Assembly (NCBI GenBank): GCA_019915135.1
Contig: JAHLMK010000018.1
Coordinates: 1,116,001 to 1,180,000, forward strand
DNA: 64,000 nt
DNA from: Strobilurus pachycystidiatus
Lineage: Eukaryota; Basidiomycota; Agaricomycetes; Agaricales; Physalacriaceae
Direction of reading: 5' to 3'
Shown: positions 39,801 through 63,384 of the stretch, piece by piece
Numbering within the stretch: position 1 is the stretch's first letter
Layout of the letters: every line of letters begins with the position of its first letter
Notes under the pieces: generated by a model
Told to the model about the DNA's origin: nothing
What the model saw: only the letters and a program-made list of their open reading frames with translations
The model's database searches: none
Position numbers and translations under genes: made by a program

Positions 39801-42800
39801 TGGTCCCAGGGGCTGTGTTGGGGGAGCCGGTCCGATGTGTGCTTGTCAAAGACAGTGAGATAGGCATGATATTGAGGAGGAATACGCTCAGCGAGAGGAC
39901 GGGTGTCCTTGGGCATTTGACTAGCTTCGGCAAGTTCCTGTGCTTTGCTAAATCCAGCACGTATTTGAATAGAGGGACCATCAGGAGTTTGTGGATCTCG
40001 CACCGGGCGGGGATAATCATCCCGGAACACTTGAGTGTACATCTGCTCTTCCCATTCTCTTGGGACCTCCACTTCTTCTTCATCGTCCTCGGTGAATAAG
40101 ACAACGGGAATTTGAATCCGATTGTAAACGCGGGGTCGGATGCTTCGACGTTGTCCGGCTGTACGCTGGACTGGGACAGGCCGGAGGTTGCCTTCGCGAT
40201 CCTTCCATTGAACTTGGTAGTCTCGATGGTGAAGACGAGGGTCGTGAGAAGATCGTTTAGTGGGGATGGGAATGCGTTTGGCGTGAGCACGTACGTCAGT
40301 CACCGGGGGGTTGTTGAGGGTGCAAGAGTTGGGACAGCGAGTGAAATCTATCTGGACACCAGCCCAGTCTATTTCTGGGTTGTGTTCATCGAGCCAGTCA
40401 GTGCCAAGAATAACGTCGTGATCACCAATGTCAGTGACATAGAGTTCGATTAACTCTTCGTGATAGGAATGACCGTCTCGGCTATAGATCCGGATACGCT
40501 GGGTAGTATAGTGTCGGACCCAGCCCATGACATTTTCAGTGCCGTCAACGTTGCGAACAGGGAAAGGGGAGGAAAGGGGCATGAGGGTGAAATGATGCTG
40601 GTTTGCATAGCGGGCGTTGATAATGATACCTTCAGCGCCGCTATCAATTAGAGCTTGTGCGACGATTTTTCTGCCGGTGATTTTGCCAATGAATTCAAAT
40701 TCCAGTGTGATTGAGGGTGTCTGTCGGTTTTGGGTGACTGCTGACATTCGAAGTTCTTTGGGATGGGTACGCTCACAGAGGGTTGATAACACAGAGAATT
40801 GATTGGTAAAATTTGTGACAGAATTGCGTACAGCTCCTCCTAACGTCGGGGTAGGGGAGCGCTCTAAAAATCCAGGCCAGCGACATCCTTCAAGAAAGCC
40901 AGGGCCTGCGCCTTCTCATCTCCCTGTAGGCCACGGAGCAAGTTGGCCGCATTGCTAATCTGTTGAATTGCATCGGCAGACGATGCGGGAGCAGTGTCGG
41001 AGGAAGTGGGAACAGCCGTGACAGCGGCGGACGTGTCAGCGGCGCGAATGGTGCGGTTTGCGGCCGGAGCAGAGGCGCTGGTACCAAAGCGAGTAGGACA
41101 GTCCTTGGACATGTGGTTGGGGCCGCGGCATCTAAAGCAAGCGCCCTTCCTGCGAAGGATTTCGCGCTCCTCGGGGGTCAGCCTAGTCAAAGGAGAGGAC
41201 GAGGTAGCACCTGTGTTACGGGATGCATCTACATCCATAGGTACTCCCATATCTTGAGCGGGAGCCGGGGCGCGCTGGGGCGGGGCACGAGGAGCGTAAA
41301 TGCCGGGAGAGGAATGGGAGCGCTGTGTCCAGTTGGCCTTTTCAGCCTTGCGGGCTTCATAGGCATGCTGCATCTCAACAGCGCGGGTCTTGAACTTGTC
41401 AAGGGTATCGGGAATGGGGTAGGACATGCAGATTCGGTCCAAGAGACTGGGGTTCAAGCCGCGTTTGAAGAAGTAGAGTAACGAGCTTTCGTCAAACTGG
41501 GAGTCATCAGCGTAGCCATCAAAGGCAGTGATGAACTTATCAATTGAAGATAAGTCCTTTTCCTGGCGGATGGTCTCGATGGCGGTACGCGCAGCGGTGA
41601 TTGGGTCAATGGCCGCATAGTCGGCTTTGAACTTCTCGATGATAGATGCCTGCGTGGTCCAGCGTTTGCTGGCAGCTGGGATGGTATTATCGTCCTGATC
41701 GGCATCGTACTCTTTCATGCGGCGTTCTGCCCATTTACCGGCGAGAGGTCCCTTGAAATATGAAAGGAAGACCGAGACCTTCTCGATCTCAGTAGAATAG
41801 CGGGCGGTGTTCAGCCGCATGTGGTTGCGGTATTGGGCCAGCCATGTAGTGGATGTGGCGCGGTCGCCGACAAAGTCGTCAAGCTTAGCTCCACGCTCGC
41901 TGGGAATAGTAGTCATGATAGGAGGGACTGGGTGAACTGGAAAAGATGGAGACGATGACCGAGAGGGATTGGAAGAGGAAGAAGAAGATGACGATGAAGA
42001 CGGGGGAGTCGATGGTTCAGAGGGTTCGGGGTCTAAAGCAAGAGGTTGGGATTCAGGTGGTGAATTGTCCTGGACTGGGGATGGAACTGGGGAGGTAGGA
42101 GCGGAGTTAAAGGTTGGTTCCGATCGGACAGGAGACGGTGGAGCAGAGGGAACTGGGGTACGAGGTGCAGGTGAGCTTGGGGTCTGTGCGGGTAATTGTA
42201 ACTCAGCTTGCGTGCGCTCTTCTAAACGCCTTTTAGCCTCCTGGTGCTCTTCTAGTTCGAGGTAGTACTTTTCTCCGTCTGATTCGAGGTAGTGCCAAGA
42301 TTCGGGGAATTCTTCGTCTTCGGGCTCGTAGAAGATTTCTTGGGGTTGATACTCTTCGTCGAGCTGGAAGTACTTGCCCTGATGAAGGTAGGCGCCGGGA
42401 GGTGGTGTGGGCGGCGCTTCGTTGGCTGAGAAGCGAGTGATGGTGGGAGGGTATGAGTGCGTGGACCGGTATCGGTATCACGCCAGAAGCTGCGGTGATC
42501 TCCGCGATGACGAGCCCTAATAGCAGCCGGTAGAGTGTGAAAAAGGACTTCGCGGTGGGTTAACGTACGGGGATTGGTAACCGCAGTCTTCTTGAACACA
42601 AGGCGTGTGGGACGAGGTTGAGAGGCAGGTGTGAGATCAGAGTTTGTGCGGTCGGCGGGCATGCGCCGAGCGAGGATGTGAGGTGGGTGTAGAAGAGTCT
42701 GTTCTAGTGTCAAGACTGGTGCCCGAATACTAAGGCGACCACCCAAGTCACACGAACGAGACAAGGAGAGAGGGATAGAGATAGAGATAGATATCAAGGG

Positions 42801-45727: not shown

Positions 45728-46077
45728 TTACGGTAACAGGTCCCGAGGAATCTCAATAATTCCCAATCTTCGATCACAGGTCTTCTCGGCGGCTTTGAGC
45801 GCTTGGGGATCTGTAAGACCCCAAATGTGCTCCGGCTCTTCGTCCCTAAGTATCACCCAAGGTTATCGCGCAAGTATTGATACATAGAGAACACCGTACC
45901 TGCCTCTGGCAGCTTTCCGCGCCTCTTCAATAACCGCCCAGACCTTCTCCTCCAAGGCCTCAAACCTGAAGCCCTGCAAGACCAGCAACTGTATGCCTTT
46001 GAAATAATCCTCCATCAAATGTGCCAATGCGGGTCCGTTGGAATAGTAATTAACGAGGAAGTGTGGAAACAGCGCGT
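45728..46077 (-). pseudogene. Kinase-like gene, 3' part (split by retrotransposon)
   Basis: This is the end of the gene whose 5' part lies at 62467-63384. It reads ALFPHFLVNYYSNGPALAHL, MEDYFKGIQLLVLQGFRFEA and KVWAVIEEARKAARG. A short GT-AG intron near 45845-45899 then leads to RDEEPEHIWGLTDPQAL, and the frame ends EIPRDLLP at the stop 45728-45730. Joining 62467 to 46077, with one copy of the GCGT duplication, continues the frame directly (PTQRLMYALFPH). The stop is 13 bases from the right end of the Harbinger element. As it stands the gene is cut by 16.4 kb and should not make a full protein. Confidence 0.78.
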
Positions 46078-47735
46078 TGATGTGCAAGTTCGGAATAGAC
46101 CTCTGAAAAGAAGCTATCGTCTAACCACACTATCAATCCTTATCACAACTAGTACTCCTTGTAAGGGAGCTGGGGTGCACAAAGGTTCGAGAGAACAAGG
46201 TGCTTTTGGGTAATGGAGAAATAGAGATGTATTCCGAATCGCTGTAGTTAAACTACGAGTTGTTTTTGGGTTCTGATCGAAATGACACAAGAAAACCTTG
46301 AAGTCGTAGGCCGAACCTCTTGACGTATGAAGACCTTAAACAGCGCGAGGCAATGTAGCTTCTACCTATCAAGTGCTCTGGTGTACAAGGACTTTGTCTT
46401 GGAATCGTCAGGCCGCTACCGCAGGTTTTACGCCACTGGACTGCTAACGATAAGGACTCCTTCTTGCACTTAAACCAAACTTCTAGTGTCTTGCACCGGG
46501 ACCAAAGGTTCCGAAAGGTGTCTCAGACGTTGACAACACTCGTTCAAACTCGACTTATTCCTCAAAGGGAAGTACTTCACGAAAGAGCGTGAGTGCAGGG
46601 CAGAACCACTTGCAAACCGGCCTTCTTGCGAATACAAGGTTCTAACACCAAGTAGATTCGTTGGTACTTGACTTGGTACGTCGGAATAAGGTTCTTTCGA
46701 GTCTTTCAAGGAGTTTGGCAACACCTGATGTCTTTAAATCTTGGAAAGGTCTTTGGGGTCTTTGTGTACTTTGCAGAAATGAGTCGAAACTCGAGATAGA
46801 TTCACTACAATGGCTGCGTCTGACTAGCGGCTACTGGAGGGGGCTCTAAGCTACCGAAATATGGGTCCTTTGGGCCCTTTTATACTACTGGTGGGTTCCT
46901 ACTGAGTAAGCATCTATTCTAGGATCGGATACATCGGACTTTCGAGTCATACAAGTGCTGGATTCTTATTGGCTATCCCTGGTCGAAACAACTGCGGACA
47001 GGCCGCTTGGTCCTTTAGCCATATACGCCACCTTGGCGGTATGGTACAATCCTTGTGCCCAGGAGATCAAGGTCCGATAAGGACTTCGATCCTTAGGTAT
47101 CTTTATGTTGCAAGGTCCTACGGACACCTGCTTTCTTGTGGATAGGTTGGATGGAGATCGTTAAGAACGTCCTTTCGAGCGCAGACACTACAGGGGAGTG
47201 CTTTCTTAAAGTGGTAATACACCCTGCTTTCGGGGTGGTCCTTGATCGTGGATCATGATCGATCGGCATAGCGGAAGGCGTCGGTTCGGAGTCCTTGACA
47301 GCTCCGAAGATTGTTTCCCCAAAAGGGTTGTGACGTCCTTGAACTATTTCGGGACCTTCCAGGTCTTTGGGTTGAGGTGCGCAGGTCTTGGGTCGCTCGA
47401 ACTGAACCGCCTGGAGACCTTGGACCCTCCTTGGGTGCGAATGGTTATAGCACATCGTCTGTAGTACAAGGTACACGCAAAGGTACGGGATTTTGAAAGG
47501 GATCCAACGCGCGGATAAGGATATTCGGATGAAGGTGATCGAAGGTTTCGATCGCGCCTGTCCTAAAGGACTTGTTAAGGCGCCTGGACCTTGTCCTGGA
47601 GGCTTGCCCGCGTCAAGGCAGTAACTCCTGCGTGCTCTATCCTAAGTACTTGACTGGAGGTTCCTAAGGTCTTTGGGCTGTTCAGGAATCGCAAAATTCC
47701 CCGTTTCTAGTACTGGAATAGTACCCTGCGTATCA
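46078..47735 (-). repeat. LTR of giant retrotransposon, 3' copy (1658 bp)
   Basis: In element orientation it begins TGATACGCAGGG and ends with CA. It lacks the ggtgtaggga-type 10-base insertion present near 60993 in the other copy, and has cacgaaaga where the other has cacaaaaga. Confidence 0.92.
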
Positions 47736-47745
47736 TCTCCCCTTG
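47736..47745 (-). promoter_or_regulatory. Polypurine tract of giant retrotransposon
   Basis: On the minus strand CAAGGGGAGA abuts the 3' LTR, the expected position of the plus-strand primer for reverse transcription. Confidence 0.65.
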
Positions 47746-47933
47746 ACTTATGAAATGTCGTCCGCGACATAGTCCTTGGTGGTTCAGAACCTTTATCCTG
47801 GGTACCAGGCCGCCGTGACAAAGTCCCCTTTTGGTTTCTATCGCCCGATGGACCCTCTTTTGCCTAACTTTGTTCCGTTATAAAAGGTCCTGGGACTTGT
47901 CCTCAGAGCTTTCATTCCTGCCTTTATTCTATC

Positions 47934-49470
47934 ATGGCTCCCAAAACTTGGACTCCCATCGCAAAGCTGCTTCCCACAACGCCGCACGTTCCGTCCGCGA
48001 AGGACCTGATCACTACGCGCGACCTTGGCGCCGGTCTCGTCGCTTATGCGCTCGACTACGACCCTCCAGCCAACACACCCGACTTCCTTATGTACCTCGG
48101 CATGCATCTTACGCTCATCATTCCCAAGGTCCATTGTCTGGACCTCAAGAAGGCGTGTTCGAATCCCGACGTGGCACTGGAGATCACCGGCTATGTTGAC
48201 AAGATCATGGAGAGAGTCCTTGTGTGTACTCCTTCGCTGTGTTCTTTTCCTGATCCTGACTTCATCCTGTCCTTGTTTTCTTTTTAGGCCGTCGCCCATG
48301 ACCTTCGCACCTTTCCGAATGGTTCCAAGGTGTCGACGGACATGGCGGTGTTCTTTTTCAACCTCCGCCTCTATGTAGGGATGCTGGTACACCTGCTGGG
48401 GATTCACCCTCAGACGCCGACGCACCACATCGCTCATATCCTCCAACCTTTGGTGAGCAGCTGCAAGAAGGCGTCTAACGCCCACTTCCCTGGCCTGTCC
48501 CCGGGTCACCCTATGCATCCGGATAACGCTTATTTCAAGCCGGACAAGCTTGAGAAAGGCAAGGTATGTCCGTTCGTTACTCGTTGGTTTCCTACTGTAA
48601 CCTCTGGATGTCTTCGCTTAGAAGACGAAGAAATCGCCCGAGGTCGTTACCGAGGCCATGGAGAAACGAGCCGAGACGGGAGACGGCGACGTCGCGATGG
48701 ATCCCGACTCTTGTGCGCGCTTCTTTCGTCCGGAGTACTTTAATTGGGCTGACGATGTGGCAGCTGGCGAGAGCGACGGTGAGGACTCCGTTGTCGTCGT
48801 CGGTGATACTGTGCGCTCAATTTCTTTGCCAGTCTCATCTTCCTTTATTGAAGCCTTTCGCCAGCTCCAAGTCGCCAATTCCTTGTCAAAGGAAGCCGAA
48901 GCGGTACGTTCCTTTGAATCCTATGTTTGTCCCGGACTTCCTTATGACTTCTTTAATAGTCATCTTCCGTCCGTTACCTTCCTTTCGCAGCTCTTCCCGG
49001 TATGGACATTAACGCCCGTGTTTACCAGAAAGCCCTTCAAACCTTGGGCGCGATCAATGGTCAAGAAGCTCCTCCTAAGCGTAAGCTTAACGATGAGAAC
49101 GCTCGCCGTGTTGTAAAGGCGGCCCGGCCTTCGACCTTTGGGGTCGAACCTGTCGTTCTTAAACAACTTGAAGGCGGTAAGGTGCTTCTTCCTCGCTCCT
49201 TGGTTTGCCTTGTTGATTCCTGGTTACTTCCCCTTAGCGAACCAGTACATCAATGGTCTGTCTGCTGCCTTGGCCCAAGTCCACAAGCGTATGTCAAGGT
49301 TGTCTGGTCTTGACGACCCCAACATCTCGCCCAACTTGGTCATTTTGGAGCGCCAGTACCGGCACGACATTATCTCGACTTTCAACGAGATTCGGGGCCG
49401 TATCCAAGTCCTGCAGTCGACTCGCGACCTTTATATCTCGGCCTTAGACGCAATTGACCAGGCTCAGTAG
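47934..49470 (+). CDS. Extra gene X of giant retrotransposon, unknown function
   Basis: Starts MAPKTWTPIAKLLPTTPHV and lies antisense to gag-pol. Exon 1 (47934-48221) encodes RDLGAGLVAYALDYDPPANT and TLIIPKVHCLDLKKACSNPD. Exon 2 from 48288 has VAHDLRTFPNGSKVSTDMAV and FFFNLRLYVGMLVHLLGIHP, ending LEKGK. Exon 3 has the acidic ETGDGDVAMDPDSCARFF and EYFNWADDVAAGE. A later exon has MDINARVYQKALQTLGAING with a basic PPKRKLNDENARRVVKAARP. The last has NQYINGLSAALAQVHKRMSR and a helical end, ILERQYRHDIISTFNEIRGR, to the stop near 49470. The junction near 48906-49000 could not be phased with confidence. Clean splice sites and long open exons argue that it is a real gene. I recognise no family. Confidence 0.6.
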
Positions 49471-49681
49471 ACTACAAGGTCCTACTTTAGCTTAACTTTT
49501 GCCAAGTCTTAACCAGTACTACTCATAGTTTTCACTACTTCGTCTTCATACTGGTTTCGGATTCCTTTCCCACTTGTAGGAGCGGTAGTCACTTTATTTC
49601 CTTAGACTACTCTAGGCCCAGTTGGTGCATAATCCAACTCCTTTCGATTTGAACCCTTAAAGTTTTTCCTGACCGCACCTT

Positions 49682-49734
49682 GGTAGGTCTAAGATCGAAC
49701 TTAGTTCGATCGGCTATCGCCGATCGTACCTACC
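49682..49734. other. Nested palindromes between extra genes X and Y
   Basis: GATCGAAC/GTTCGATC (49693-49700 and 49704-49711) and CGATCGGC/GCCGATCG (49707-49714 and 49719-49726) are two overlapping 8-bp stems. They are enclosed by GGTAGGT/ACCTACC (49682-49688, 49728-49734). All are perfect. It could be a terminator or regulatory hairpin. Confidence 0.7.
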
Positions 49735-49843
49735 TTTAGATAGGTGGCGCCTAAACTTTGCATTTTATCGGTTCGTTCGGACCTTCGACTGATGAGGGTC
49801 CTCTTTTAAGTCGGTCCTGGAGACAGGAATCTCATCTTTGATC

Positions 49844-50981
49844 ATGCCCGCACCCGTCCTGCCTTCCTTTGCAGATACGCGCATTCAAGGCGTTCGACTT
49901 CGCTCGCCTTTGACCTCCTTTCAACATGACTTAGTCACAGCGGACCTTGCGCTGAGCTGCGCCATGGAGATGTACAACTATACACGCTACTTCGTTGCGG
50001 TAGTCCGTCATCCGGATGGGACCTTAGCTACGGAAGACGACACTCGCCTCCTTCCCCAGCTCAAGCCTCCGGTTCATGCCTTTGGTCGTGACGAACCTCT
50101 AGACGTCCCGACCTTGCGCTATCTTTTGCACGTTCTGGTCAGTCTAGTTGAACTTGTCTCGACACTTTTCTCGTTTAATCGGATGGTCCTTAGGTCCGCT
50201 TTCGTTATATCTGGGAACCCGCTTTTCACTTCCAGAACGGGGCCATTCCTCAAGGTTTCAAGGCGCACTTCTTTCCTTTGTACTACACCGCCGTCGAACT
50301 TTGCAAGGCTTGGTTCGCCGAAGGCAATACCTATGACGGTGAAGGCGCCCGCTTCCACCTGGGGGACCTTAACATGGACATCCTTGCGAGTCACCCTTGG
50401 TTTACCCAAGAGTTCATTGGACCTTTCATGGTGAGTTAAACCTGGTCTTTTCCTTTCATGTCTTGTGGTCGGCACTGACCTTAGACGTAGGTCGAGGCCC
50501 ACTTTGGTGGTTACTCCGGCTTTTCCACACTCCTTCGCTCGCTTTACATCGGGCCTGACGACCTGAAGGTCCTTCCTGTTCAGTATGGGGACCTTCCTGC
50601 CGACCTTGTCACGGTTATGAAGTGGTGGCCAGGGTTCCAACGTCAGAACTCTGCTCTTTACGGCTGGGACGACGCCTACGCGTTGGATAGACCTCCCAAT
50701 ATGCGTCGGTTGATCCCCGAGATTGACCTTCCCGCCAATCGGGTCCGTGAACAACTTCGTAGTTTGAGGTCCGTTTGTAACTTCTGTGTTTCCAGCGCCC
50801 CAACCAGTCGCTGCCTATCATCGATCCACTACTCTGGCTCATCGACTGGTCGGAGGCCACCGAAGTAGACTACGAACTCCTTGCTGCTAGTATGTTAGCA
50901 ATCGACCTTAGCCACGCAGGACCTTTCTATGCGCGCCTTGCGAACCTTGCGGTCCCTCCTGATTGGAGTCGTTTTGCTTAG
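49844..50981 (+). CDS. Extra gene Y of giant retrotransposon, unknown function
   Basis: Starts MPAPVLPSFADTRIQGVRL, downstream of gene X on the same strand and antisense to gag-pol. Exon 1 continues LALSCAMEMYNYTRYFVAVV and ends TLRYLLHVL. Exon 2 has VRFRYIWEPAFHFQNGAIPQ, FFPLYYTAVELCKAWFAEG and LNMDILASHPWFTQEFIGPF. Exon 3 has VEAHFGGYSGFSTLLRSLYI and VMKWWPGFQRQNSALYGWDD, ending DLPANR. Exon 4 has RPNQSLPIIDPLLWLIDWSE and ends AVPPDWSRFA at 50979-50981. Introns lie near 50142-50196, 50431-50489 and 50742-50795; all restore frame. It is rich in aromatic residues and looks like a folded globular protein. I recognise no family. Confidence 0.62.
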
Positions 50982-51370
50982 TCCTTAGATGACTTCTTTT
51001 GACCTAAAGGTCGCCTCTCTTTTTATTCCTTACAGCTTGTCCTTAGTCACATTGCTTCTGCCTGTATTACTTTACTTGCAACGCAGTTCCTTGTGGGCCC
51101 TTTCGACTTAACAAAGTCCTTAGCTTCCGACCTTTGCGACCTCTGGTATATCAAGGAGAGTCCTGGACTCTCCCCTTGACTTAAGGTTTCAACTAAGGTC
51201 CTTGTTCTTGTTTCCTTAGTGTTTTCACACGGTTCTTTCGTTACAAGAAGTTGTAAATTTTCATATAAAGTACAACGGGGCGGGGCGGGCGATGCGTATA
51301 CGAAAGTGTCCATTGTGGCACTGTGACTAAAGTTCGTGTATATATAAAAGGGAATTGCGGCGGGACGCTA

Positions 51371-53487
51371 CTAACGTCCCACCGCAATCTCTGCGATCTT
51401 CCTAAACTTCTTGCGACTCTTCTCACTCAGGGAGAAGTACAACGCCAGGACCTTGTCTACGTCCTCGGCGGGGTCGACGCGGCTGGTGGAGGCGGAGGAC
51501 GTCGCACCTTGACGGCTGGCTCCTTCGCCCTTGTCCTGTCGTTGGACCGCGCTGATCGAAGTGGTGGCCCCCTTCGAGGACTTGGTCGAGGCGGGAGGCG
51601 GGGCTGCGCTAACCTTTCCTTTTTGGAGGCGGGTGCGGGGCGCGTGGACCTCCTCGATGTCGGAGTCGCCGGTGCCCTCTTCGTCCGACGTCTCCTCCTT
51701 CTTCGCCTTGCCCTTCTTTCCCGCCGTGCTCTCGACGCGACGGCGCTTCGCCGGGGGCTCGTCCTTCTTCCTCTGCTTCTCCTCCTTCCACCGCTGGTCC
51801 GCTTCCTTCGCGATCGCTTGGGCGGCGTCGGAATAGTCCTGGTGACGGCGGGCCCTGATCTGGGAGTCGGGCTTGTTCCTCGCCACGGCCTGCAACTGGG
51901 CGCGGACCTTCAGCGCGACCTCCTTCCACGGCGCGGGGACCTGACTTCGCCTCCACGCGACCCAGCACGGACCGTGCTGTCCGTCCTTTTCCTTGCATTG
52001 GTCGCACGTGAAACTGTTGTTCTTCTCGGCGGGCGTGGCGTGAATCCGGAAGTAGGTGCACGTCAACCGCTGCTTGATGCAGGGGACGCAGACACCGTCG
52101 TCGCGGTGGAGGGGGATGCGCGGGTTGGTCTTGTCGCGCACGTCGAGGACGAAGTCGTCCTCCTCCTCGGCGCTGGCTTCGGCGTCTTCTTCCAGCTCGT
52201 CCTCCTCCTCCGGTTCCTCCTCGACGAACTTGCGCTTCTGGCTTCCACCAGTGGTGGCGCGCGCGACCGAGGTTTTCCTGGCGGGGGCGACGTCCTTGTC
52301 CTTGGGTTCCACTTTTATTGCGACGGCCTTCGGCCTTGGCGGAGCGTCAGCAAATGTTAGCGGCGCGAGGGTGCGGCGGACGTACTTGGTGGTCGATTTG
52401 GGACCTCCTTTGCTCGCCGCGACATACGGCTTACGCTTGGGGGGTTCCGCCTCGGGCTTGGGCGTGGGTTCATGGTGCGAGGAGGGCGCCGGGGACGGCG
52501 TTCGCGAGTCGCGAGGACTAGGTGACTCCTCCTTCGCAATCTCCTGCATCGTGGGGCGCGGCGTATCCTCGTCCTCGACCTTGCTGTCGAGGCTGGGCGT
52601 CCCGTCGCGCTCGTAGTTGGCGATTCCAAGCTCGGTTATCGCGCTTTCGATCAGATTATCCATCGTTTTGTAGAACGACCCCTGGAGGGCGGTCTCGTCG
52701 CGCTGTCTTCGCATTTCCACGAGCAGCGCGCCCCAGAATAGATTAGCCCGGTCCTGGTCGCGCACAAAGTTCCAGAGGTGATCCAGCTCCAGAAAACAAC
52801 GCTGGGCGTCGTCTTCTGAAAGCCGGAGCGCGAGCTCGGGGGCGATGCGGTCGTTATCTAGGAAGGTGATGTCGTAGACGGGGCGGACCTGCCTCCTGTA
52901 GGTCGTGGCGTCGCGCCACGCGGCGCTCAGCGCCATCTCGACGCGTTCCAGCGGAGTGGCCTTGCCCGCTGGGGTCGATTCGAGTGCGTCCTGGAAAGTC
53001 AACCAAAAGACGCCGTTACGGAGGTACCCCTTGTAACCGGCCGCCTGCAGAATGTCGCGGGTTGACGCTGGGCTGGCGCACAGTGACTCGGCCAGGCACA
53101 GACTGATCCCTGCGTCCAGCTCTGGCGGTGCGGTCATGTTCGTGAGGAAGCCGCTGTAGTTAAACAGGGGGCGGGTCATCTTGACGTGGTCCGGCCTGGC
53201 TTCACAGGCGATGGGAGGGGGCTAGCGCAAAGAGTGGTCGTGGTGAGTTTTCTCGTCTCTTTACGCGTCGTTGCCCGTCACTCACCTGTTCCTGCGCTAG
53301 TGCCTCTTTTTCCTCTTCCTCCTGAGCTGCGGGAGGCTCCTGATGTTCTTGTGGCGACGTTGGCGGCGGCGGCGGCGACTGCTCCTTTTGGTAAGTAAGT
53401 TCGCATGCCGCCCTGCCGGCGATCGTGTTGGTTGCTTACCTTCACGTCCTCCTTGCGCTCGGTGTCTTGGTGCGAACTTGTTGACAT
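51371..53487 (-). CDS. Extra gene Z of giant retrotransposon, Cys-rich nuclear-type protein
   Basis: On the gag-pol strand, downstream of the integrase. A short exon MSTSSHQDTERKEDVK is joined to EQSPPPPPTSPQEHQEPPA, then through a second GT-AG intron to PPPIACEARPDHVKMTRPLF and a long last exon ending FRKIAEIAVGR. The N-terminal 200 residues look globular (DAGISLCLAESLCASPASTR, RCFLELDHLWNFVRDQDRAN). A charged disordered middle leads to the cysteine cluster CVPCIKQRLTC and, 17 residues on, CDQCKEKDGQHGPC. The spacing C-x2-C-x6-C-x17-C-x2-C-x9-C recalls a stretched fungal Zn2Cys6 cluster. The C-terminal half is Lys/Arg/Glu-rich with KRRRVE, a likely nuclear signal. A DNA- or chromatin-linked role is only inference. 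The two introns are sense to the element's genomic RNA, which is unusual. Confidence 0.65.
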
Positions 53488-53828
53488 TGTCGTGGTGGTG
53501 GTTTGGTGCGTGGTGCTTCCTTTTTGCGCTTACCACATCACCTTACGGTTCCATCACCTTTAAGCTTTTTCTTTATTCGCACCCCGCCACTTCCCTGATG
53601 CCTCGTGCCTTGTCTTGCTTCCTTATTCTGTCCTTAGTTCCATGCTACCTTAGCTACCTTTGTAGCCAGCTGGGCACAGAATAAGTCTTAAATAAAATTT
53701 TTATAGTCTTTGAATAAATGGACCGATGTCCCTCTATTCTCTCTTTACTTTTCTGATGACGTCCCCGTCATCTGGTATGGTACCTTGGCTTCCTTTTGAA
53801 GCTGTAGTCCAGTCCTGGGTGCTCAAGG
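53488..53828. other. Spacer between extra gene Z and Pol
   Basis: About 340 bases inside the giant element, between the start of gene Z and the Pol stop. It should hold a promoter for gene Z if it is transcribed separately. No TATA box was identified on the minus strand. Confidence 0.4.
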
Positions 53829-56800
53829 TCACGTAGTTCTCGCAAGGACATCTAAGGTCTTTGTGATCGGCTTACTTATGAAGTGTAGTCGATCAAAGAA
53901 CTGTTTTCCAAGGTCTATAGGATCTCGTCGCGATACAAAAGGTATTACACGGAACTGAGCTATCTTGTCTTTGTAGATTGTCCCGTCCAACTCGCAGACC
54001 ACATAGTTTCCTGCCGAGGTCCTTGTTACTACCGCGTAAGGTCCCATAAACCTTTCCTTGAACTTCGCATTCATTTCTGATTCGATCCTAGTGTTCCTTA
54101 CTAGCACTAGTTCACCAGTTTTGAATTTGTAGCGAGGGATACTGTTCTGGAAGTCCTCTAGGAACTTCGCCGCGGCCTTCTGTTTATTTAGAAGGACCTT
54201 CGACCTTAACTTGGCAGTATCTTCCTTGTGCTTGATGAGCTGCCTAGCTCGGAAGGCAATAAGGTCCGAATGGGAGACCAGTCGACCTGGTGCTTCGACC
54301 AGCCAAGTCAATTCCTCCAGGTCCATTGGCATGATTGGTTCACAACCGGTTACTGCCTGGAACGCTGAAGTACCTAGACTTCTCTTTATGGTAATGCGCT
54401 CTGCCCAAAGGACCTCATGTAGGAACTCTGGCCATTGCTCGGGTTTACCCCTGCATACCTTGAAGAGAGATTGACGGATATCCCAGTGTCCTCGTTCAAC
54501 CTTTCCGTTGGCTTGCTTATTGTACGCCGTGATCAAGATACCTGTAATACCATATTTCTGTTCAATATGTACTAAAGCCTTCTTGATTGCTGGCCCATTG
54601 TCGGTTACAATTTCCTTGATACAACCCCACCTGCACAGAATGTCCTCGAAGATCCATTCTCCCAGTGACTCGGCGGTCTCTTCCTTGAGAGCCCTTGCCT
54701 CTGGCCAACTTGTTAATCCACACCTTGCTACGGTCACAGCGTTGAAGCCGGCCCATTTTGAAGGCCGTTTCTTTCGAGTGGATTCTTCTCCTGCCTTAGG
54801 CATCCGGAAGGTGTCTATATAAGCCCTTTCGTAGATACCTGGAGTTGAAGTAATCGTTGGTGCAACCTTTATGTTACGTTTCTGGCGTTTCTGACATAGT
54901 ACACAGGTCCTTACGTACCATCGTATGTCGACCTCCATACCTGGCCACCAGAATTGCTTCATGATGAGTTGTAACACGGAATATTGTCCTTTATGTCCTG
55001 CCCGATCGTGTAGAGCTTTACAAACCGGGATTCGTTCATTTGGAAGTAGCACTCGACGGGGGTGGGAGTCCGAATGTGTTCGGTATAACTTTTCATGCTG
55101 GACAAAGAAGTCTTTGCTCCATTTCTCCAAGTCTTCGTCCTCAAGTACATCTTCCGATTGTAAGTAAGGTTGAAGTTTGGGCAGATAGGTCTCCCACAAC
55201 CGCTCCCTTTTGCTCTTATTGAGCTCTGGGAACTCCGTGATATGCATCCATCCTTCGATATCTTTAACGTTGACTAGTCCCGCAGTCCTTACCGCTTTAG
55301 AAACCTTTATATGGTCTGGTAAAGGACTCCGCACTATTTCTTGGAAGTAGCCTCCCCTACTGTCGATGTCATTCCGGAAAGTGTCAAAGTCCAAAGGTTG
55401 CTTTTCTATAGGCAGACCCTTGGGCTCCTGGTACTCAAAGGTATTGACTTCGTCATCCTCTATGTTTATATGAGGTCTGGGTACTACTACATCATGCTCT
55501 GAAGCTGGACGGCGACTCAAGCCATCCGGGCCATGGACCTTTCCTGGTACGTGTACAAGCGTGAAGTGGTACATCAAGATCTCCTCAGCCCACCTTTGCA
55601 GGTTTGCGTTCGCTAAGGAGTCCACGTTTGATAACATGCCTTTGATGTATTTTGCATCTACTTCAATTTCTAGTTTTCTACACCCTAGAAGGTAGTACTT
55701 GCACGCAGACAGAGCTCTGAAGAGCCCGAATAGTTCTCGCTTGGCTTGCGAGTACCTTGCCTCTCTTTCGTTCAAGGTCAGAGACATAAACTTCGCAAAG
55801 TATCGTTTCTTAGGGTCCTTGGGATCTACCTGGGACAGATAGAAACCTACTGCCTGGTAAGAGGTGTCTACCGACAGTGTGATTGGCGTGGACCATTCAT
55901 AATTCAGTGGTTTCAGCATCGGACAAGTTCGTATGGCTTCCTTTAAGGTATCCATACTTTCCTGCTCCTCGTCTGTCCATCTGAACTTGGTAATGTCTTT
56001 GGTTAACCTGGTCAAAGGTAACGCCTTCTTAGAGTAGTCCTTTACAAATGCTCTGAAGATTCCAGCTGTTCCTAAGAACGAACGGACTTCCGTGAGCGCT
56101 TTACAAGGGGGCCAATCCGAGATCACCTTAACGCGATCTTCAGCTGGCTTTCTACCTTCGTAGGTACAGACATGTCCCACTACCACAATCTCTTCTGCAC
56201 AAATGATAGCCTTGTGACCAGAAAAGGTCCCTCCGGCATGTTTCATTCGCTGTATGATCCTGTTCATGTTCACAAGGTGTTCCCAAACGAAACGCCTTAC
56301 TTCAGGATGACCTGGAAGCGTTTCGTAGGTGCCATCAGCTTGTTCATATCGCGTAGCGGGTCCGCGGACGGGCACATCGTCGATATAAGGTCTGGTAAAG
56401 GCTGGTATTTCATCCTTGAGAATCGTTGTAACATCGTCATGAAAGATAGGTACTGAATTAGTCCAGCCCATTGGTAAGGTCTTTAACCTTAACGCTCCGT
56501 AAGGTGTCGAGAAGGTTGTCATATCGCGAGACGCGGTGGCAAGGAGCCGTTCGTCATATCCAACGAACAGATCCAAGGTCCCTCCACAACTTCGTCCTGC
56601 AAAGGACTCCGCTAGTTCCTCCGTGGCTGGAGGTAACCCTGAGTGCGCAATGGTCACCGCATTGAGTGGTTCCAGACTGTGCACTAGGCGAAGTTTCTTT
56701 CCATCCTTCTTAACAACACAGAACCACCTGGAGCGGTATGAGGAGTTCGAAGGCTCATACACGCCCGAGTCTAGTTTGTGCTTGATAATCTTACAGACTT

Positions 56801-56843
56801 CGTCATAGATTCCTGTGGAATTGGTATATTCCTCAACACCCAA
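53829..56843 (-). CDS. pol: Pol of giant retrotransposon: RT, RNase H, integrase
   Basis: A 1004-codon frame. Reverse transcriptase blocks: SSYRSRWFCVVKKDGKKLRL, TLDLFVGYDERLLA, TLPMGWTNSVPIF and the catalytic PYIDDVPV. RNase H: TLSVDTSYQAVGFYLSQ, EREARYSQAKRELFGLFRAL and IEVDAKYIKGML. Integrase: the zinc region HDRAGHKGQYSVLQLIMK with CVLCQKRQ, then catalytic Asp in ERAYIDTFRMP, Asp in IVTDNGPAIKK and Glu in ANGKVERGHWD. GPYAVVTRTSAGNYVVCELD follows. I see no chromodomain. The conserved RT start GIYDEVCKIIKHKLDSGVYE is in this frame, while the preceding NIPIPQ is in another, so a 1-nt frameshift near 56790 separates it from the upstream part. Confidence 0.9.
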   Translation of the reverse strand: MGVEEYTNSTGIYDEVCKIIKHKLDSGVYEPSNSSYRSRWFCVVKKDGKKLRLVHSLEPLNAVTIAHSGLPPATEELAESFAGRSCGGTLDLFVGYDERLLATASRDMTTFSTPYGALRLKTLPMGWTNSVPIFHDDVTTILKDEIPAFTRPYIDDVPVRGPATRYEQADGTYETLPGHPEVRRFVWEHLVNMNRIIQRMKHAGGTFSGHKAIICAEEIVVVGHVCTYEGRKPAEDRVKVISDWPPCKALTEVRSFLGTAGIFRAFVKDYSKKALPLTRLTKDITKFRWTDEEQESMDTLKEAIRTCPMLKPLNYEWSTPITLSVDTSYQAVGFYLSQVDPKDPKKRYFAKFMSLTLNEREARYSQAKRELFGLFRALSACKYYLLGCRKLEIEVDAKYIKGMLSNVDSLANANLQRWAEEILMYHFTLVHVPGKVHGPDGLSRRPASEHDVVVPRPHINIEDDEVNTFEYQEPKGLPIEKQPLDFDTFRNDIDSRGGYFQEIVRSPLPDHIKVSKAVRTAGLVNVKDIEGWMHITEFPELNKSKRERLWETYLPKLQPYLQSEDVLEDEDLEKWSKDFFVQHEKLYRTHSDSHPRRVLLPNERIPVCKALHDRAGHKGQYSVLQLIMKQFWWPGMEVDIRWYVRTCVLCQKRQKRNIKVAPTITSTPGIYERAYIDTFRMPKAGEESTRKKRPSKWAGFNAVTVARCGLTSWPEARALKEETAESLGEWIFEDILCRWGCIKEIVTDNGPAIKKALVHIEQKYGITGILITAYNKQANGKVERGHWDIRQSLFKVCRGKPEQWPEFLHEVLWAERITIKRSLGTSAFQAVTGCEPIMPMDLEELTWLVEAPGRLVSHSDLIAFRARQLIKHKEDTAKLRSKVLLNKQKAAAKFLEDFQNSIPRYKFKTGELVLVRNTRIESEMNAKFKERFMGPYAVVTRTSAGNYVVCELDGTIYKDKIAQFRVIPFVSRRDPIDLGKQFFDRLHFISKPITKTLDVLARTT

Positions 56844-57673
56844 GGTGTGTGCGGTATTACCGGGATATCCACTGGTGGAAAGAACTCTGGTTTGAAGTGT
56901 CCTTTCTCAGATTCTTCCCAGGCAAAGCCTTCGTTCTGTTTACAGAAGATGGAGTCTATAATCCGTCTTTCTGCATCCGTCAGGAAGTCCCCGACGTGGT
57001 CGGCTTGTATCTGTTCCCTCCTTTCGGCAGTATACCTACCTGTGGGTACGAAGGGTGGTGGATCAGGTACTAATTCCGGCATCCCAGCTAGTGGGTCTCC
57101 ATGAATGTGGCGCTTGATCCTGAATTCTTCCGGTAAGGTTCCAAGGTGAGCTTTGGTTTTCAAGGCTACTGGTTTGTACTTCTTTCCTACGAATACACCC
57201 CTCTTAGGGATCTGACTTTCCAACCTTAGGAACTCCTGTTGTGCCTCCGCCATGTAATCCTTTGGTAAGGTTACCGACAAGCCCGTAAAGACTTGTTCTA
57301 ACTCCTTTGGTACCCCGTAAAAGAGATTCAAAGTCGCCGTGGCGTAGGACTTAAATTCTTCTTGGTCTTCCGCAATCTGGTTAATATTGAATACCTTGCG
57401 AAAGCCTTGAGTCTTGGCTGGGACCTTTAATAGTCCCGTAGGTGTCACCATATGTTCTGGGACTGTCATATGTGTCGATGCTTGGTGCATCGATGCATGC
57501 ATGAAGGCGTGTTGCTTCCTTAGCCTTTTGGCTGCCTGATGAACCCTATTGGGTGACTTCTTCATGTATAAGGACGTTAAGTCCCCTTCCCCGAAGGTCT
57601 CCCTGTTATCACCAGGTATCCAACTTTGCTTTACTTCGATGTTTCCTTCTGGTGACCTTTCAAGGATCAACAC
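56771..57673 (-). CDS. Pol N-terminal segment of giant retrotransposon (frame-shifted)
   Basis: A 300-codon frame that reads as the piece of the polyprotein between protease and RT: KVFNINQIAEDQEEFKSYAT, FVGKKYKPVALKTKAHLGTL, LTDAERRIIDSIFCKQNEGF and HTPWVLRNIPIPQ. It overlaps the RT frame by 73 bases and breaks exactly where family members continue into GIYDEVCK. It is probably not a separate protein but part of Pol displaced by small indels at both ends. Confidence 0.7.
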   Translation of the reverse strand: MLILERSPEGNIEVKQSWIPGDNRETFGEGDLTSLYMKKSPNRVHQAAKRLRKQHAFMHASMHQASTHMTVPEHMVTPTGLLKVPAKTQGFRKVFNINQIAEDQEEFKSYATATLNLFYGVPKELEQVFTGLSVTLPKDYMAEAQQEFLRLESQIPKRGVFVGKKYKPVALKTKAHLGTLPEEFRIKRHIHGDPLAGMPELVPDPPPFVPTGRYTAERREQIQADHVGDFLTDAERRIIDSIFCKQNEGFAWEESEKGHFKPEFFPPVDIPVIPHTPWVLRNIPIPQESMTKSVRLSSTN

Positions 57674-57693
57674 GGCTTCTTCATAGGAATTTC

Positions 57694-58866
57694 CTACGTC
57701 CTTAGGTTCCCGTGAAAACCCGTTTGTCCTCCTGGAATCATATGTCTTGGGATCTGTCCTCGACGGTAAGAAGGTAGCGATAACTTCTTCCCATTGGTGT
57801 TATCCGTAAGGGTTCCGATTGCGTTCCCGTTGGGAAGGTTGGTGATGACCAGGTTTGAAACGATCTCGAAAGGTCGTCCCAGTAGGACCTCATAGGCGGG
57901 ATCCTGCAACACATGCAACTGAAGGTAATAGACAATTCCTTCAAAGTCAAAAGGTATGTTACGAGCCAATCCCAAGGTACTGGTTCGTCCCTTGTCCGCA
58001 CTTTCCATAGTAATGGTGAAAGTGGGATCATAGGCTATTCCTAGTTCCAATGCTGCCTTGAGCGAAATGGAGGCAATCTGCGACCCACCATCCACTAAAC
58101 TCTTCTTTTTACCATTCTTGTTGATCAAGGGCCAAAAGGTTCGTAGATCTGCATTTTCCGGCGCCATATTGCCACTTATCATTTGAAAGGGACCAGTATA
58201 GTGACCTCCGGAAAGGTTTACAAACTGTTCTACCGCATCGTGGACTACAATTCCACCAATAGGTAAATCACCTTGCTCATGAAAGTTGACTGAATACAGC
58301 TCGGGTTGGAAGTGATCTTGGACCGTATCGGCCACTTCTTCCGTCTTGAATACAGCCACAGGCGTGTTGCGTTTCCTGATGAAGTCCGAAATGCTCTGCT
58401 GCCAAGGGGGGTTGGTAGCTAGTAGCGCTTCGGGTAACAAGAACTTCCAGGCTTCACGCCAACTGGGATTCTTGTGCAAGAGTTCTTCTGCCAGGCTACG
58501 GCGTTGGAAACTCTTGACCTTAGGTTCCTTAGGTTGAACCTTTGGTTGGTTCTTTTCTGGCAGAGTTGAATCTGCTTTTGGTTGCGGCACCGGGTCTGGT
58601 TCTTCCATCGCTAGGACTTCGTCAAGAAGGTCCTGGTCAACAGGTTCTACTTCTTGAGTGACTTCCGGCTTGGAGAATGATACCTTAGGCGGCGCTGCTT
58701 TTGGAATGACCACGGACACCCGGTCCTTAGGCCATGAGGTTACCTTCTTTTGTGGAGTTGAATCCACAGGAGCACTAGGTGCTTTTGCGCTCTGACGAGT
58801 CTGACGAGTTTCTACAGTGAACTGGCTCTCCGGAGGAGTATGTGCTAACTGCACTCCTTCCTTCAT
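57694..58866 (-). CDS. Protease-region ORF of giant retrotransposon
   Basis: The 390-codon frame starts MKEGVQLAHTPPESQF, its ATG overlapping the gag stop as ATGA (58863-58866). A Pro/Lys-rich linker is followed by FWPLINKNGKKKSLVDGGSQ with IASISLKAALELG, a retroviral-type aspartic protease motif (DGGS for the usual DSG or DTG), then YEVLLGRPFEI, as after the protease flap. It ends GQTGFHGNLRT. The neighbouring frame reads TNGFSREPKDVGNSY across the same bases, so a 1-nt frameshift near 57720 probably separates it from the rest of Pol. Confidence 0.78.
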   Translation of the reverse strand: MKEGVQLAHTPPESQFTVETRQTRQSAKAPSAPVDSTPQKKVTSWPKDRVSVVIPKAAPPKVSFSKPEVTQEVEPVDQDLLDEVLAMEEPDPVPQPKADSTLPEKNQPKVQPKEPKVKSFQRRSLAEELLHKNPSWREAWKFLLPEALLATNPPWQQSISDFIRKRNTPVAVFKTEEVADTVQDHFQPELYSVNFHEQGDLPIGGIVVHDAVEQFVNLSGGHYTGPFQMISGNMAPENADLRTFWPLINKNGKKKSLVDGGSQIASISLKAALELGIAYDPTFTITMESADKGRTSTLGLARNIPFDFEGIVYYLQLHVLQDPAYEVLLGRPFEIVSNLVITNLPNGNAIGTLTDNTNGKKLSLPSYRRGQIPRHMIPGGQTGFHGNLRT

Positions 58867-60335
58867 CGAGCCCTGCCGAAACCCTGATAGGCGTCGGGGG
58901 CAAACTCTTCTTCTTGGGTTGGGGTTTGAACATACATCGCGACCTCAGGTGCAAACTCATCTTCTTGAGATTGGAACGCCGATACCTTAGGTGCATTTTC
59001 TTGTTGAAACTTCTGGACTTGTTCCCAAGGGCTGAGAGGCTGCTTGGGACTAACCCTTTGAATAGGTTGACTAGTAGTTCCATTCGTTACATGATATATG
59101 TTGGTACCACCAGGCTTGTAGATATGACCATTGCTTTCGCACATTTCCTTTGTAGGACAATTCGCTACAATATGCCCTAGTTCACGACAGAAGTAACACC
59201 TTCCATCGTTAACTACGAACTTGTTTCCTGGGAACGCGCCCGGAGGAGCTTTGTAGAGTCCATTCGGTAAGTTGGTCGGGACTGAGACACCTTGAGCAGG
59301 TGTTTGTAGATAAATCGGCGAGGCTTCTTGTACAAAACCTTGGGTGCGGAGTCCTTGCGGACCTCCACGCTGTAAGGTATGGAGAAGTTCTGCCATCATC
59401 TTCTGATCAGCCTTGCGAGCCTCTTCGCGTTCCTTTTCTCCTTTCTGGATAATGTCCTGAAGGCTAGCTACCCTATTCAGGTATTCATCCAACTCCTCTG
59501 TCTTGATTCGGGTGGTAGAGGCGGGAATAAGTTCTCTGTTATAAGGACTATCCTTCGCACTCTTGCTCATCCATTTATCGGTCAAGAAGTAGTTGGAGAT
59601 CGCTGCCTCGACCTCTGACAACGTGAAGTCATAGGTGGGGGTTGTCCCGGCTGTTGCATTAGCTTTCGCATTGCGCCTGAGGTCCCCAAGGACATTATGC
59701 CAAACTCCCTCTGTGATAGAGGACTTGATATCTTCTATAGCACCCTTATTGGTAAGTTCTCCCGACGTGATAAGATGTCCCATGATATGGAGCACTTCGC
59801 GCTGAAAGCTTTCCCATTTCTGCTTGTTGGCTACGGGCCTAGCCAGGTACAGGTCCAAGGCATCCTTTAGGTCGGCCGGGACGTACGTAGGATCGTTCTT
59901 TCCCTTTGAGTATGAGGAAAGAACTGATTCTTGGAAGTCCGCCCAGACACCTTTCAGGTAGTCTGGGTTTTTGTGCCACCTTAGGCGTTGTTCGTGGCCG
60001 GCGTATAGCGCCGCTACTTCCAACTTAGTACCTTGTTCGGTGATTCCTGTCTGGTCAAAGATCCAGTTGCACATCGTGAAGAATTCCCTCACATCGTCTC
60101 CCGAGTGTCCCTTGAACTTTGGGGCATCCCTTGAGAATGGTATCGGGATCTTCTTGCCTTGGATCTCGCCTCTAGCTTCAGCGCTAAGTTCCTCGGAAGG
60201 TACAATTGCTCGTACTGCCATTACTGGAACTGGTATCGTGTTTTGGGTAGACGGGTTAAAGTCAATGAAGGGGGTAATAGGTTCTGGACTTTCGGGGTCT
60301 TCAAGGTCAGTCAAAGGACTTCCGAAAGGTGTCAC
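58863..60335 (-). CDS. gag: Gag of giant retrotransposon
   Basis: The 490-codon frame starts MTPFGSPLTDLEDPESPEP. A capsid-like region has IPFSRDAPKFKGHSGDDVRE, FFTMCNWIFDQTGITEQGTK and AALYAGHEQRLRWHK, with KWESFQREVLHIMGHLI further on. A nucleocapsid zinc knuckle reads CYFCRELGHIVANCP (C-x2-C-x4-H-x4-C). Its last codons end at TGA overlapping the next ATG, suggesting coupled reinitiation or frameshifting for the downstream frame. Confidence 0.88.
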   Translation of the reverse strand: MTPFGSPLTDLEDPESPEPITPFIDFNPSTQNTIPVPVMAVRAIVPSEELSAEARGEIQGKKIPIPFSRDAPKFKGHSGDDVREFFTMCNWIFDQTGITEQGTKLEVAALYAGHEQRLRWHKNPDYLKGVWADFQESVLSSYSKGKNDPTYVPADLKDALDLYLARPVANKQKWESFQREVLHIMGHLITSGELTNKGAIEDIKSSITEGVWHNVLGDLRRNAKANATAGTTPTYDFTLSEVEAAISNYFLTDKWMSKSAKDSPYNRELIPASTTRIKTEELDEYLNRVASLQDIIQKGEKEREEARKADQKMMAELLHTLQRGGPQGLRTQGFVQEASPIYLQTPAQGVSVPTNLPNGLYKAPPGAFPGNKFVVNDGRCYFCRELGHIVANCPTKEMCESNGHIYKPGGTNIYHVTNGTTSQPIQRVSPKQPLSPWEQVQKFQQENAPKVSAFQSQEDEFAPEVAMYVQTPTQEEEFAPDAYQGFGRAR

Positions 60336-60775
60336 AAATGCGGGACTAGGCGAAGTTCTAGAGTCCGAATGTCTTCGGATACTGGTTGGAGTTCTCGAAG
60401 GTGATTCAGGATCTGAAGAAGATCTGATCCTAGAGGCAGTAGGTGTTGAAGGTGGTACTTGCGTACGTTTCTTCTTTTGGTTCTTGGGAGTAGTCGGGTC
60501 TGCAAAGCGTCGCTGTGCTTGAGCTACTTCACTAGGTAAACCGTTGTAAAGTGAGCCGGCGATTGGGCGATTGCTTCTTAGGCGACTAGTGATACCAGAG
60601 GTTGCTGGATTTGAAGATCCGGCAATAACTGGGTCTCCTTTTGGTGGTTGTGGATTTGCGCGGTTCTGGCTGTTGGTGTAACGACCAGAGTTCCTTGCAG
60701 CCAGTGTCTTTTGTTTATGGAGATTCCGATCTCAAGGTCGACTTAGAAGTCTTTTTCGAAATCAAAATTTACACC

Positions 60776-60793
60776 CCCTCCCGGTGGGCTCCA
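60776..60793 (-). promoter_or_regulatory. Primer-binding site of giant retrotransposon
   Basis: On the minus strand TGGAGCCCACCGGGAGGG begins five bases inside the 5' LTR. The TGG start and GC-rich 18-mer fit pairing with the CCA end of a tRNA. Which tRNA cannot be told from this window. Confidence 0.7.
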
Positions 60794-60798
60794 AAATA

Positions 60799-62466
60799 TG
60801 ATGTGCAAGTTCGGAATAGACCTCTGAAAAGAAGCTATCGTCTAACCACACTATCAATCCTTATCACAACTAGTACTCCTTGTAAGGGAGCTGGGGTGCA
60901 CAAAGGTTCGAGAGAACAAGGTGCTTTTGGGTAATGGAGAAATAGAGATGTATTCCGAATCGCTGTAGTTAAACTACGAGTTGTTTTTGGGGGTGTAGGG
61001 ATTCTGATCGAAATGACACAAGAAAACCTTGAAGTCGTAGGCCGAACCTCTTGACGTATGAAGACCTTAAACAGCGCGAGGCAATGTAGCTTCTACCTAT
61101 CAAGTGCTCTGGTGTACAAGGACTTTGTCTTGGAATCGTCAGGCCGCTACCGCAGGTTTTACGCCACTGGACTGCTAACGATAAGGACTCCTTCTTGCAC
61201 TTAAACCAAACTTCTAGTGTCTTGCACCGGGACCAAAGGTTCCGAAAGGTGTCTCAGACGTTGACAACACTCGTTCAAACTCGACTTATTCCTCAAAGGG
61301 AAGTACTTCACAAAAGAGCGTGAGTGCAGGGCAGAACCACTTGCAAACCGGCCTTCTTGCGAATACAAGGTTCTAACACCAAGTAGATTCGTTGGTACTT
61401 GACTTGGTACGTCGGAATAAGGTTCTTTCGAGTCTTTCAAGGAGTTTGGCAACACCTGATGTCTTTAAATCTTGGAAAGGTCTTTGGGGTCTTTGTGTAC
61501 TTTGCAGAAATGAGTCGAAACTCGAGATAGATTCACTACAATGGCTGCGTCTGACTAGCGGCTACTGGAGGGGGCTCTAAGCTACCGAAATATGGGTCCT
61601 TTGGGCCCTTTTATACTACTGGTGGGTTCCTACTGAGTAAGCATCTATTCTAGGATCGGATACATCGGACTTTCGAGTCATACAAGTGCTGGATTCTTAT
61701 TGGCTATCCCTGGTCGAAACAACTGCGGACAGGCCGCTTGGTCCTTTAGCCATATACGCCACCTTGGCGGTATGGTACAATCCTTGTGCCCAGGAGATCA
61801 AGGTCCGATAAGGACTTCGATCCTTAGGTATCTTTATGTTGCAAGGTCCTACGGACACCTGCTTTCTTGTGGATAGGTTGGATGGAGATCGTTAAGAACG
61901 TCCTTTCGAGCGCAGACACTACAGGGGAGTGCTTTCTTAAAGTGGTAATACACCCTGCTTTCGGGGTGGTCCTTGATCGTGGATCATGATCGATCGGCAT
62001 AGCGGAAGGCGTCGGTTCGGAGTCCTTGACAGCTCCGAAGATTGTTTCCCCAAAAGGGTTGTGACGTCCTTGAACTATTTCGGGACCTTCCAGGTCTTTG
62101 GGTTGAGGTGCGCAGGTCTTGGGTCGCTCGAACTGAACCGCCTGGAGACCTTGGACCCTCCTTGGGTGCGAATGGTTATAGCACATCGTCTGTAGTACAA
62201 GGTACACGCAAAGGTACGGGATTTTGAAAGGGATCCAACGCGCGGATAAGGATATTCGGATGAAGGTGATCGAAGGTTTCGATCGCGCCTGTCCTAAAGG
62301 ACTTGTTAAGGCGCCTGGACCTTGTCCTGGAGGCTTGCCCGCGTCAAGGCAGTAACTCCTGCGTGCTCTATCCTAAGTACTTGACTGGAGGTTCCTAAGG
62401 TCTTTGGGCTGTTCAGGAATCGCAAAATTCCCCGTTTCTAGTACTGGAATAGTACCCTGCGTATCA
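60799..62466 (-). repeat. LTR of giant retrotransposon, 5' copy (1668 bp)
   Basis: Matches 46078-47735 apart from a 10-base insertion near 60990 and rare substitutions; followed by the duplicated target GCGT at 62467-62470. Confidence 0.92.
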
Positions 62467-63384
62467 GCGTACATCAAGCGCTGCGTCGGCAGGGCGTCAC
62501 TCCTTCTGAGTAGGAACCCATTGACGTTGACGATACCTAGTACAAGCTGTCAGTCGTGTTAGATGGATAGATAAGAAGAAGCACAGCACCTCCGTCAAAA
62601 AATTGCAATATTTTGCCAGCTTGCATGTAGAGAAAGTCGCACATTTCTCGGCTGATGAAAGACGGGGAGCTTTCGAAAAACTCCTCAAAGTCATATGAGA
62701 ATGCAGAGCGAGTACAGACATTATGGTGATTCGCAACCATGTCTTCGAAGTCGATGATACGGAATTCCTCGCAATTGCCACGGTAAAGTACGTTTCTCGA
62801 ATCTAAGTCGAGTTGCAGGAATCCCAGGTCGTGAATTTTTTGCAGGTGCGAAATTATCACGAGTCTGAAAAACAAATTTAGGCATAAATATGACAGTGCA
62901 TAGCAAATACCTGCTTCTCCGACTTTTCTAGCATAACCAGAGGGATCTCCAGTGCCTGCCCCCAACGCTCCAGCAAAAGGCATCCAATGCCATCATGCGT
63001 ACCATCAAAAGCCTTGAGGAATCCGAACATGCAAGGTATAGCCCTCCCTTGTAAGCTTTGCATGCAACAGTATCGGAACGCCTCTTCGGCTATGTCCTTC
63101 AAGTTCCCCATCTTGACGACGGCATGTACTGGTTTATTATTCCTTTCCCAGACCCTTCCATGGTTATCCTCAAGGCACGCTCCATAGACAGTCGAGTGAC
63201 TGTTCGCACTGAGTATCTCTGTAAGAACGATGTTGAACTCCGCTGGCCATGCGAGCTGATCGAGAGGAGGTGTTTCGCATTCGGCAAGTTTAATTACTGA
63301 GGATGCGCGGTGATGTGGAATGGAGTTGCTGAGCCTTGAGAGAAGAATCATGTTCACGGCGGGTTGTCGTTGTCGTTGGCCCAC
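62467..63384 (-). pseudogene. Kinase-like gene, 5' part (split by retrotransposon)
   Basis: Minus-strand exons encode a protein-kinase-like fold. The first shows NIVLTEILSANSHSTVYGAC, VHAVVKMGN (VAIK-like Lys), EEAFRYCCMQSLQGRAIPCM and IGCLLLERWGQAL. After an intron comes ISHLQKIHDLGFLQLDLDSR with NVLY, a catalytic-loop equivalent (HxxF.Q.DL..RN). FRIIDFEDM then stands in the place of DFG. A further intron joins FFDGG to IVNVNGFLLRRSDALPTQRL, where the giant LTR element interrupts; the rest is at 45728-46077. Such kinase-like proteins are abundant in agaricomycetes and have no known substrate. The start is uncertain: the frame opens at 63384, but coding-like signal continues upstream. The intron near 62870-62925 needs a weak GTCGGA donor to keep frame. 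Confidence 0.68.

Follow-up and report, generated by a model that had tools for sequence, protein, structure and literature searches.

The 64,000 nucleotides (nt) of Strobilurus pachycystidiatus DNA analyzed here (contig JAHLMK010000018.1, positions 1,116,001 to 1,180,000; hereafter the window) contain a long terminal repeat (LTR) retrotransposon that carries, in addition to gag and pol, three intron-containing genes between pol and the 3' LTR, designated X, Y and Z (Table 1). X and Y are antisense to pol and Z is sense. The three gene models (47934-49470, 49844-50981 and 51371-53487) and their orientations were proposed in an earlier sequence-only reading of the window, and both are borne out by exon models whose introns are conserved in other copies of the element.

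The two LTRs have TG...CA ends and align over 1668 columns with one mismatch and a single 10-nt gap, which upholds the near-identical repeats and GCGT duplications of the earlier reading. That reading also named a primer-binding site, a polypurine tract, gag and pol. The polypurine tract stands, and pol is recognizable by RNase H (residues 310-446) followed by an integrase zinc domain (residues 624-677), the gypsy order, in a Pfam search. At the primer-binding position there is a PBS-like site, for which an exact-pattern search gave no tRNA with a matching acceptor stem. The gag zinc knuckle lies below the Pfam cut-off. The pol frame is interrupted in the window copy, in which Pfam detected neither RVT_1 nor rve. 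The LTRs, target-site duplication, polypurine tract and position of RNase H before integrase match a retrotransposon of the Ty3/gypsy type. Chromoviruses are distinguished by a chromodomain after the integrase; the pol open reading frame (ORF) had no Pfam match to Chromo, and the element is not a chromovirus by this definition.

Table 1. Features of the element and its three additional genes (window positions)
Feature	Positions	Strand	Remarks
LTR retrotransposon, whole	46078..62466	(-)	gag-pol on minus strand; LTR pair, target-site duplication, gag/pol domains
Target-site duplication GCGT, left	46074..46077	.	flank sequence
3' LTR	46078..47735	(-)	
Polypurine tract AAGGGGAGA	47736..47744	(-)	abuts 3' LTR; from sequence
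TATAAAA	47879..47885	(+)	~50 nt upstream of X start codon; identical in 27/27 copies
X exon 1	47934..48221	(+)	
X exon 2	48288..48563	(+)	
X exon 3	48622..48810	(+)	
X exon 4	48865..48903	(+)	13 codons; weakest part of X model; sister family supports
X exon 5	48960..49176	(+)	
X exon 6	49238..49470	(+)	X = 413 amino acids (aa)
Two abutting palindromes with CGG-N6-CCG	49693..49726	.	between X and Y
Y exon 1	49844..50137	(+)	
Y exon 2	50194..50430	(+)	
Y exon 3	50491..50742	(+)	
Y exon 4	50796..50981	(+)	Y = 322 aa
Hypervariable stretch centred on Z	50900..53700	.	approximate limits; mean pairwise difference per 200 nt
Z segment	51371..53221	(-)	within Z model 51371-53487
Z exon 2	53286..53378	(-)	
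Z exon 1	53440..53487	(-)	ATG in 21/25 copies (3 gapped, 1 not covered)
TATAAAA	53699..53705	(-)	~210 nt upstream of Z start codon; identical in 25/25 copies covered
pol ORF, RNase H and integrase zinc domain	53829..56906	(-)	1025 aa open in window copy
ORF with weak aspartyl-protease match	57694..58944	(-)	gag-asp_proteas E 0.014, under cut-off
gag-like ORF, CCHC zinc knuckle	58863..60731	(-)	622 aa stop to stop; zf-CCHC E 0.0011, under Pfam cut-off
Primer-binding-site-like TGGAGCCCACCGGG	60780..60793	(-)	5 nt inside from 5' LTR; from sequence
5' LTR	60799..62466	(-)	aligned to other LTR
Target-site duplication GCGT, right	62467..62470	.	flank sequence

In the 25 copies chosen because they match the three-gene module, X and Y are both intact. 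All five introns of X have GT/AG ends in 26 of 26 copies (the 25 plus the window), with no internal stop and no gap, and the three introns of Y have them in 25 of 25. The short, frequent introns point to a basidiomycete host. A first, five-exon model of X was wrong around 48810-48990 and was replaced by six exons after comparison with a sister family. Searches of 5.8 billion proteins gave no relative of X (five-exon model) or Y. The palindromes between X and Y lie within 46 nt (49690-49735) that 21 of 25 copies share without change, and the sister family has an 18-nt palindrome containing CGG-N6-CCG, also between X and Y. This spacing is not enriched within the element (2 sites; spacings of 0-15 give 0 to 5). 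Over 48001-56000, across the three genes and the last part of pol, the AT skew is strongly negative (-0.18 to -0.28 per 2 kb).

Z was at first regarded as a single-exon gene. This view was overturned when the upstream exons, already present in the sequence-only model, were confirmed in the copies: the donor of intron 1 is kept in 24 of 24 copies covered, and its acceptor and both sites of intron 2 in 25 of 25. Since introns in the sense orientation are retained in the copies, we infer two fates for the transcript, reverse transcription of unspliced RNA alongside production of spliced mRNA, a division resembling that of retroviruses. Only two relatives of the main Z ORF were found among the same 5.8 billion proteins (70% and 44% identity), on contigs 3.1 and 4.2 kb long that offer no genomic context. 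The PDB and family libraries returned no match to the module proteins, and AlphaFold models of Z and its two relatives had a mean pLDDT (predicted local distance difference test) of 38. Fungal Zn2Cys6 regulators have the pattern C-x2-C-x6-C-x5to12-C-x2-C-x6to8-C. Z contains C-x2-C-x6-C, a long linker and C-x2-C-x9-C; with this different spacing and no Pfam match to Zn_clus, it falls outside that class.

We searched the genome (51.8 Mb in 61 contigs) for further copies with the integrase part of pol. Of 299 candidates 91 were scored, and grouping by identity gave groups A (at least 92%; 54 places), B (76-81%; 19) and C (63-68%; 18). The pol frame is open over 1323 aa in 33 of the 54 group A places. 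For Z, 62 of 89 rows were used, the other 27 being fragments near used rows; 33 of the 62 places cover residues 1-603 with no stop and at least 83% identity. Z lies within 6 kb behind a same-strand pol in 55 of the 62 (39 of 54 in A, 16 of 19 in B, none of 18 in C), although one group A pairing is doubtful (5.3 kb, 42% identity). Among the seven places without pol by this rule, L029 and L031 do hold pol, and C10:625652 has a group A solo LTR upstream, followed by a stretch 94% identical to the group B post-pol spacer. C5:548229, C10:703234, C18:795551 and C1:5454344 are without assignment; no Z place was shown to lie outside an element. The sister family (group B), whose integrase is 81% identical, has the same three genes in the same order and orientation; its gene models were guided by the genes of the window copy, and two placements of the third Y intron tied. 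Elsewhere, a family A solo LTR (~96%) is nested in an apparent family B element (L040:255-1931). A group C element (L039:1951-3777; 65% in integrase) carries two different sense ORFs after pol, one having a C-x2-C-x6-C ... C-x2-C-x6-C motif and possible sense introns.

Where present, the genes are subject to purifying selection, with dN/dS (the ratio of nonsynonymous to synonymous divergence) of 0.078 for X (pooled, 25 copies and the window), 0.152 for Y and 0.153 for Z (measured on 53182-51371). One frame on the opposite strand also has a low dN/dS (0.11-0.26), which is expected where third positions line up, but it has ~11 to 21 stops per copy. In Z, 11 of 23 copies have codons cut by gaps (2-3 per copy, but 9 in L031), a pattern that in-frame indels out of codon phase produce. 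Purifying selection and the sharing of the genes with the sister family make a chance capture unlikely. That X, Y and Z are captured host genes, or a chance capture, had been offered as the alternative by the sequence-only reading; they would then be passengers acquired in one lineage, and LTR elements are known to transduce genes (PMC7264820). In this genome such an origin is largely refuted by the selection on all three genes, the sister family and the context of Z, and we consider it very improbable, even though short forms devoid of the genes occur and multiply.

Those short copies weigh against a need for the three genes. Fifteen places span a single deletion junction (48492/53587), with the loss of Y, Z and most of X, so that the expectation that full copies would not lack the genes failed. 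Thirteen of these fall among the 15 group A places without Z, and seven of the thirteen have a 1323 aa open pol. L035 and L036 share a different deletion (48028-50926) that takes nearly all of X and Y and retains Z. The deletion-junction places are 90-100% identical to the query, and the short lineage is therefore not new; this form lacking 48493-53586, found at L038 (C40:67400-70600) and 14 other places, has apparently multiplied from one deletion. The deletion copies speak against a strict need for the module in cis, not against function, and the module is either dispensable or its products act in trans. The other refuting outcome, homologues lying mainly outside LTR elements, was not seen in this genome. 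With these mixed results, the reading of the three genes as a distinct element architecture is supported overall.

Diversity along the element is far from uniform. Per 200 nt it is 0.5-5% up to ~50900, 6-18% to ~53700 and 1-5% beyond, and the mean pairwise synonymous divergence (dS) is 0.440 for Z versus 0.037 for X, 0.060 for Y and 0.088 for pol. In copy pairs less than 3% apart over the backbone parts compared, X, Y and pol, the N-terminal third of Z differs by up to 26%. Grouped by this third with a cut-off of 4%, 25 copies fall into 7 Z groups on backbones that differ little, and the L022/L026 pair shows a sharp change near 51500. Z distances are uncorrelated with those of LTR plus X (r 0.03, p 0.19) and correlated with those of the region upstream of Z (r 0.76). 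We read these patterns as exchange of Z between element backbones, probably with selection for Z diversity between copies. All twelve 50-codon windows of Z have a dN/dS of 0.06-0.23, and the diversity of Z is therefore old and constrained. Gene conversion is well documented among dispersed copies, and it is conceivable, though we think it doubtful, that the diversity is not selected: subfamilies may have diverged long ago, with later conversion or sweeps homogenizing LTR, pol, X and Y and sparing Z by chance. The rather gradual rise and fall of diversity around Z, the remaining correlation of Z with Y (r 0.40) and weakly with pol (r 0.27, p 0.003), and the lack of site-level positive selection in any of the twelve windows would fit such a history. 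The centre of diversity is, however, constant across many copies, and the seven Z groups sit on little-differing backbones.

The cassette-like behavior of Z, the module's own introns and TATA boxes, and the lack of relatives of X and Y among the proteins searched also raise the idea of an ancient mobile unit or viral remnant riding in the LTR element, with a selfish function of its own such as addiction or immunity toward the host or other elements. We regard this as unlikely. No free-standing unit was seen, and a search limited to repeats of at least 40 nt gave none around the module. X and Y have low, pol-like diversity, and the module as a whole therefore does not move independently.

Boty-like elements of Botrytis with an antisense gene, brtn, were reportedly described by Zhao et al. 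(2011, Virology). Antisense ORFs are already known in plant LTR elements and Boty (PMC7264820), and the Boty-like elements are likewise fungal, with an extra gene that lies antisense between pol and the 3' LTR (PMC8365987, PMC7264820). The present element belongs with these LTR elements in that its antisense coding genes X and Y are conserved in many copies. Compared by description, Boty has one such gene, whereas here there are three on both strands, all with introns, including a hypervariable sense gene. Maize Grande (gene23) and rice RIRE2 also have an antisense gene in this position, and that of Grande is driven by a promoter of its own and yields a nuclear product; both differ in having a single antisense gene and a plant host (PMC7264820). 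Some copies of the plant Retand lineage are non-autonomous, as here. The antisense domain common in Retand, TRP28 (pfam04195), was not matched by X (five-exon model) or Y in Pfam at E values up to 5, and the word intron is absent from the main text of the paper on that lineage (PMC11963269). Retroviral env, too, lies in sense orientation between pol and the 3' LTR, and it passes from genome to genome (PMC10536682), much as we read Z to do. A title and abstract search, with subscription papers mostly outside its coverage, found no LTR element of a fungus that carries three additional spliced genes.

Elsewhere in the window, a second gypsy element adjoins at 36707-42477 (-), with RVT_1, RNase H, integrase and Chromo and a gag-like ORF upstream, and an ORF at 7041-9182 (+) matches the transcription-silencing protein Clr2.

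S. pachycystidiatus thus harbors an LTR element whose additional genes contain introns, lie on both strands and are under selection. The island of diversity at Z poses a testable question: what selects for difference among the copies of one transposon within one genome.
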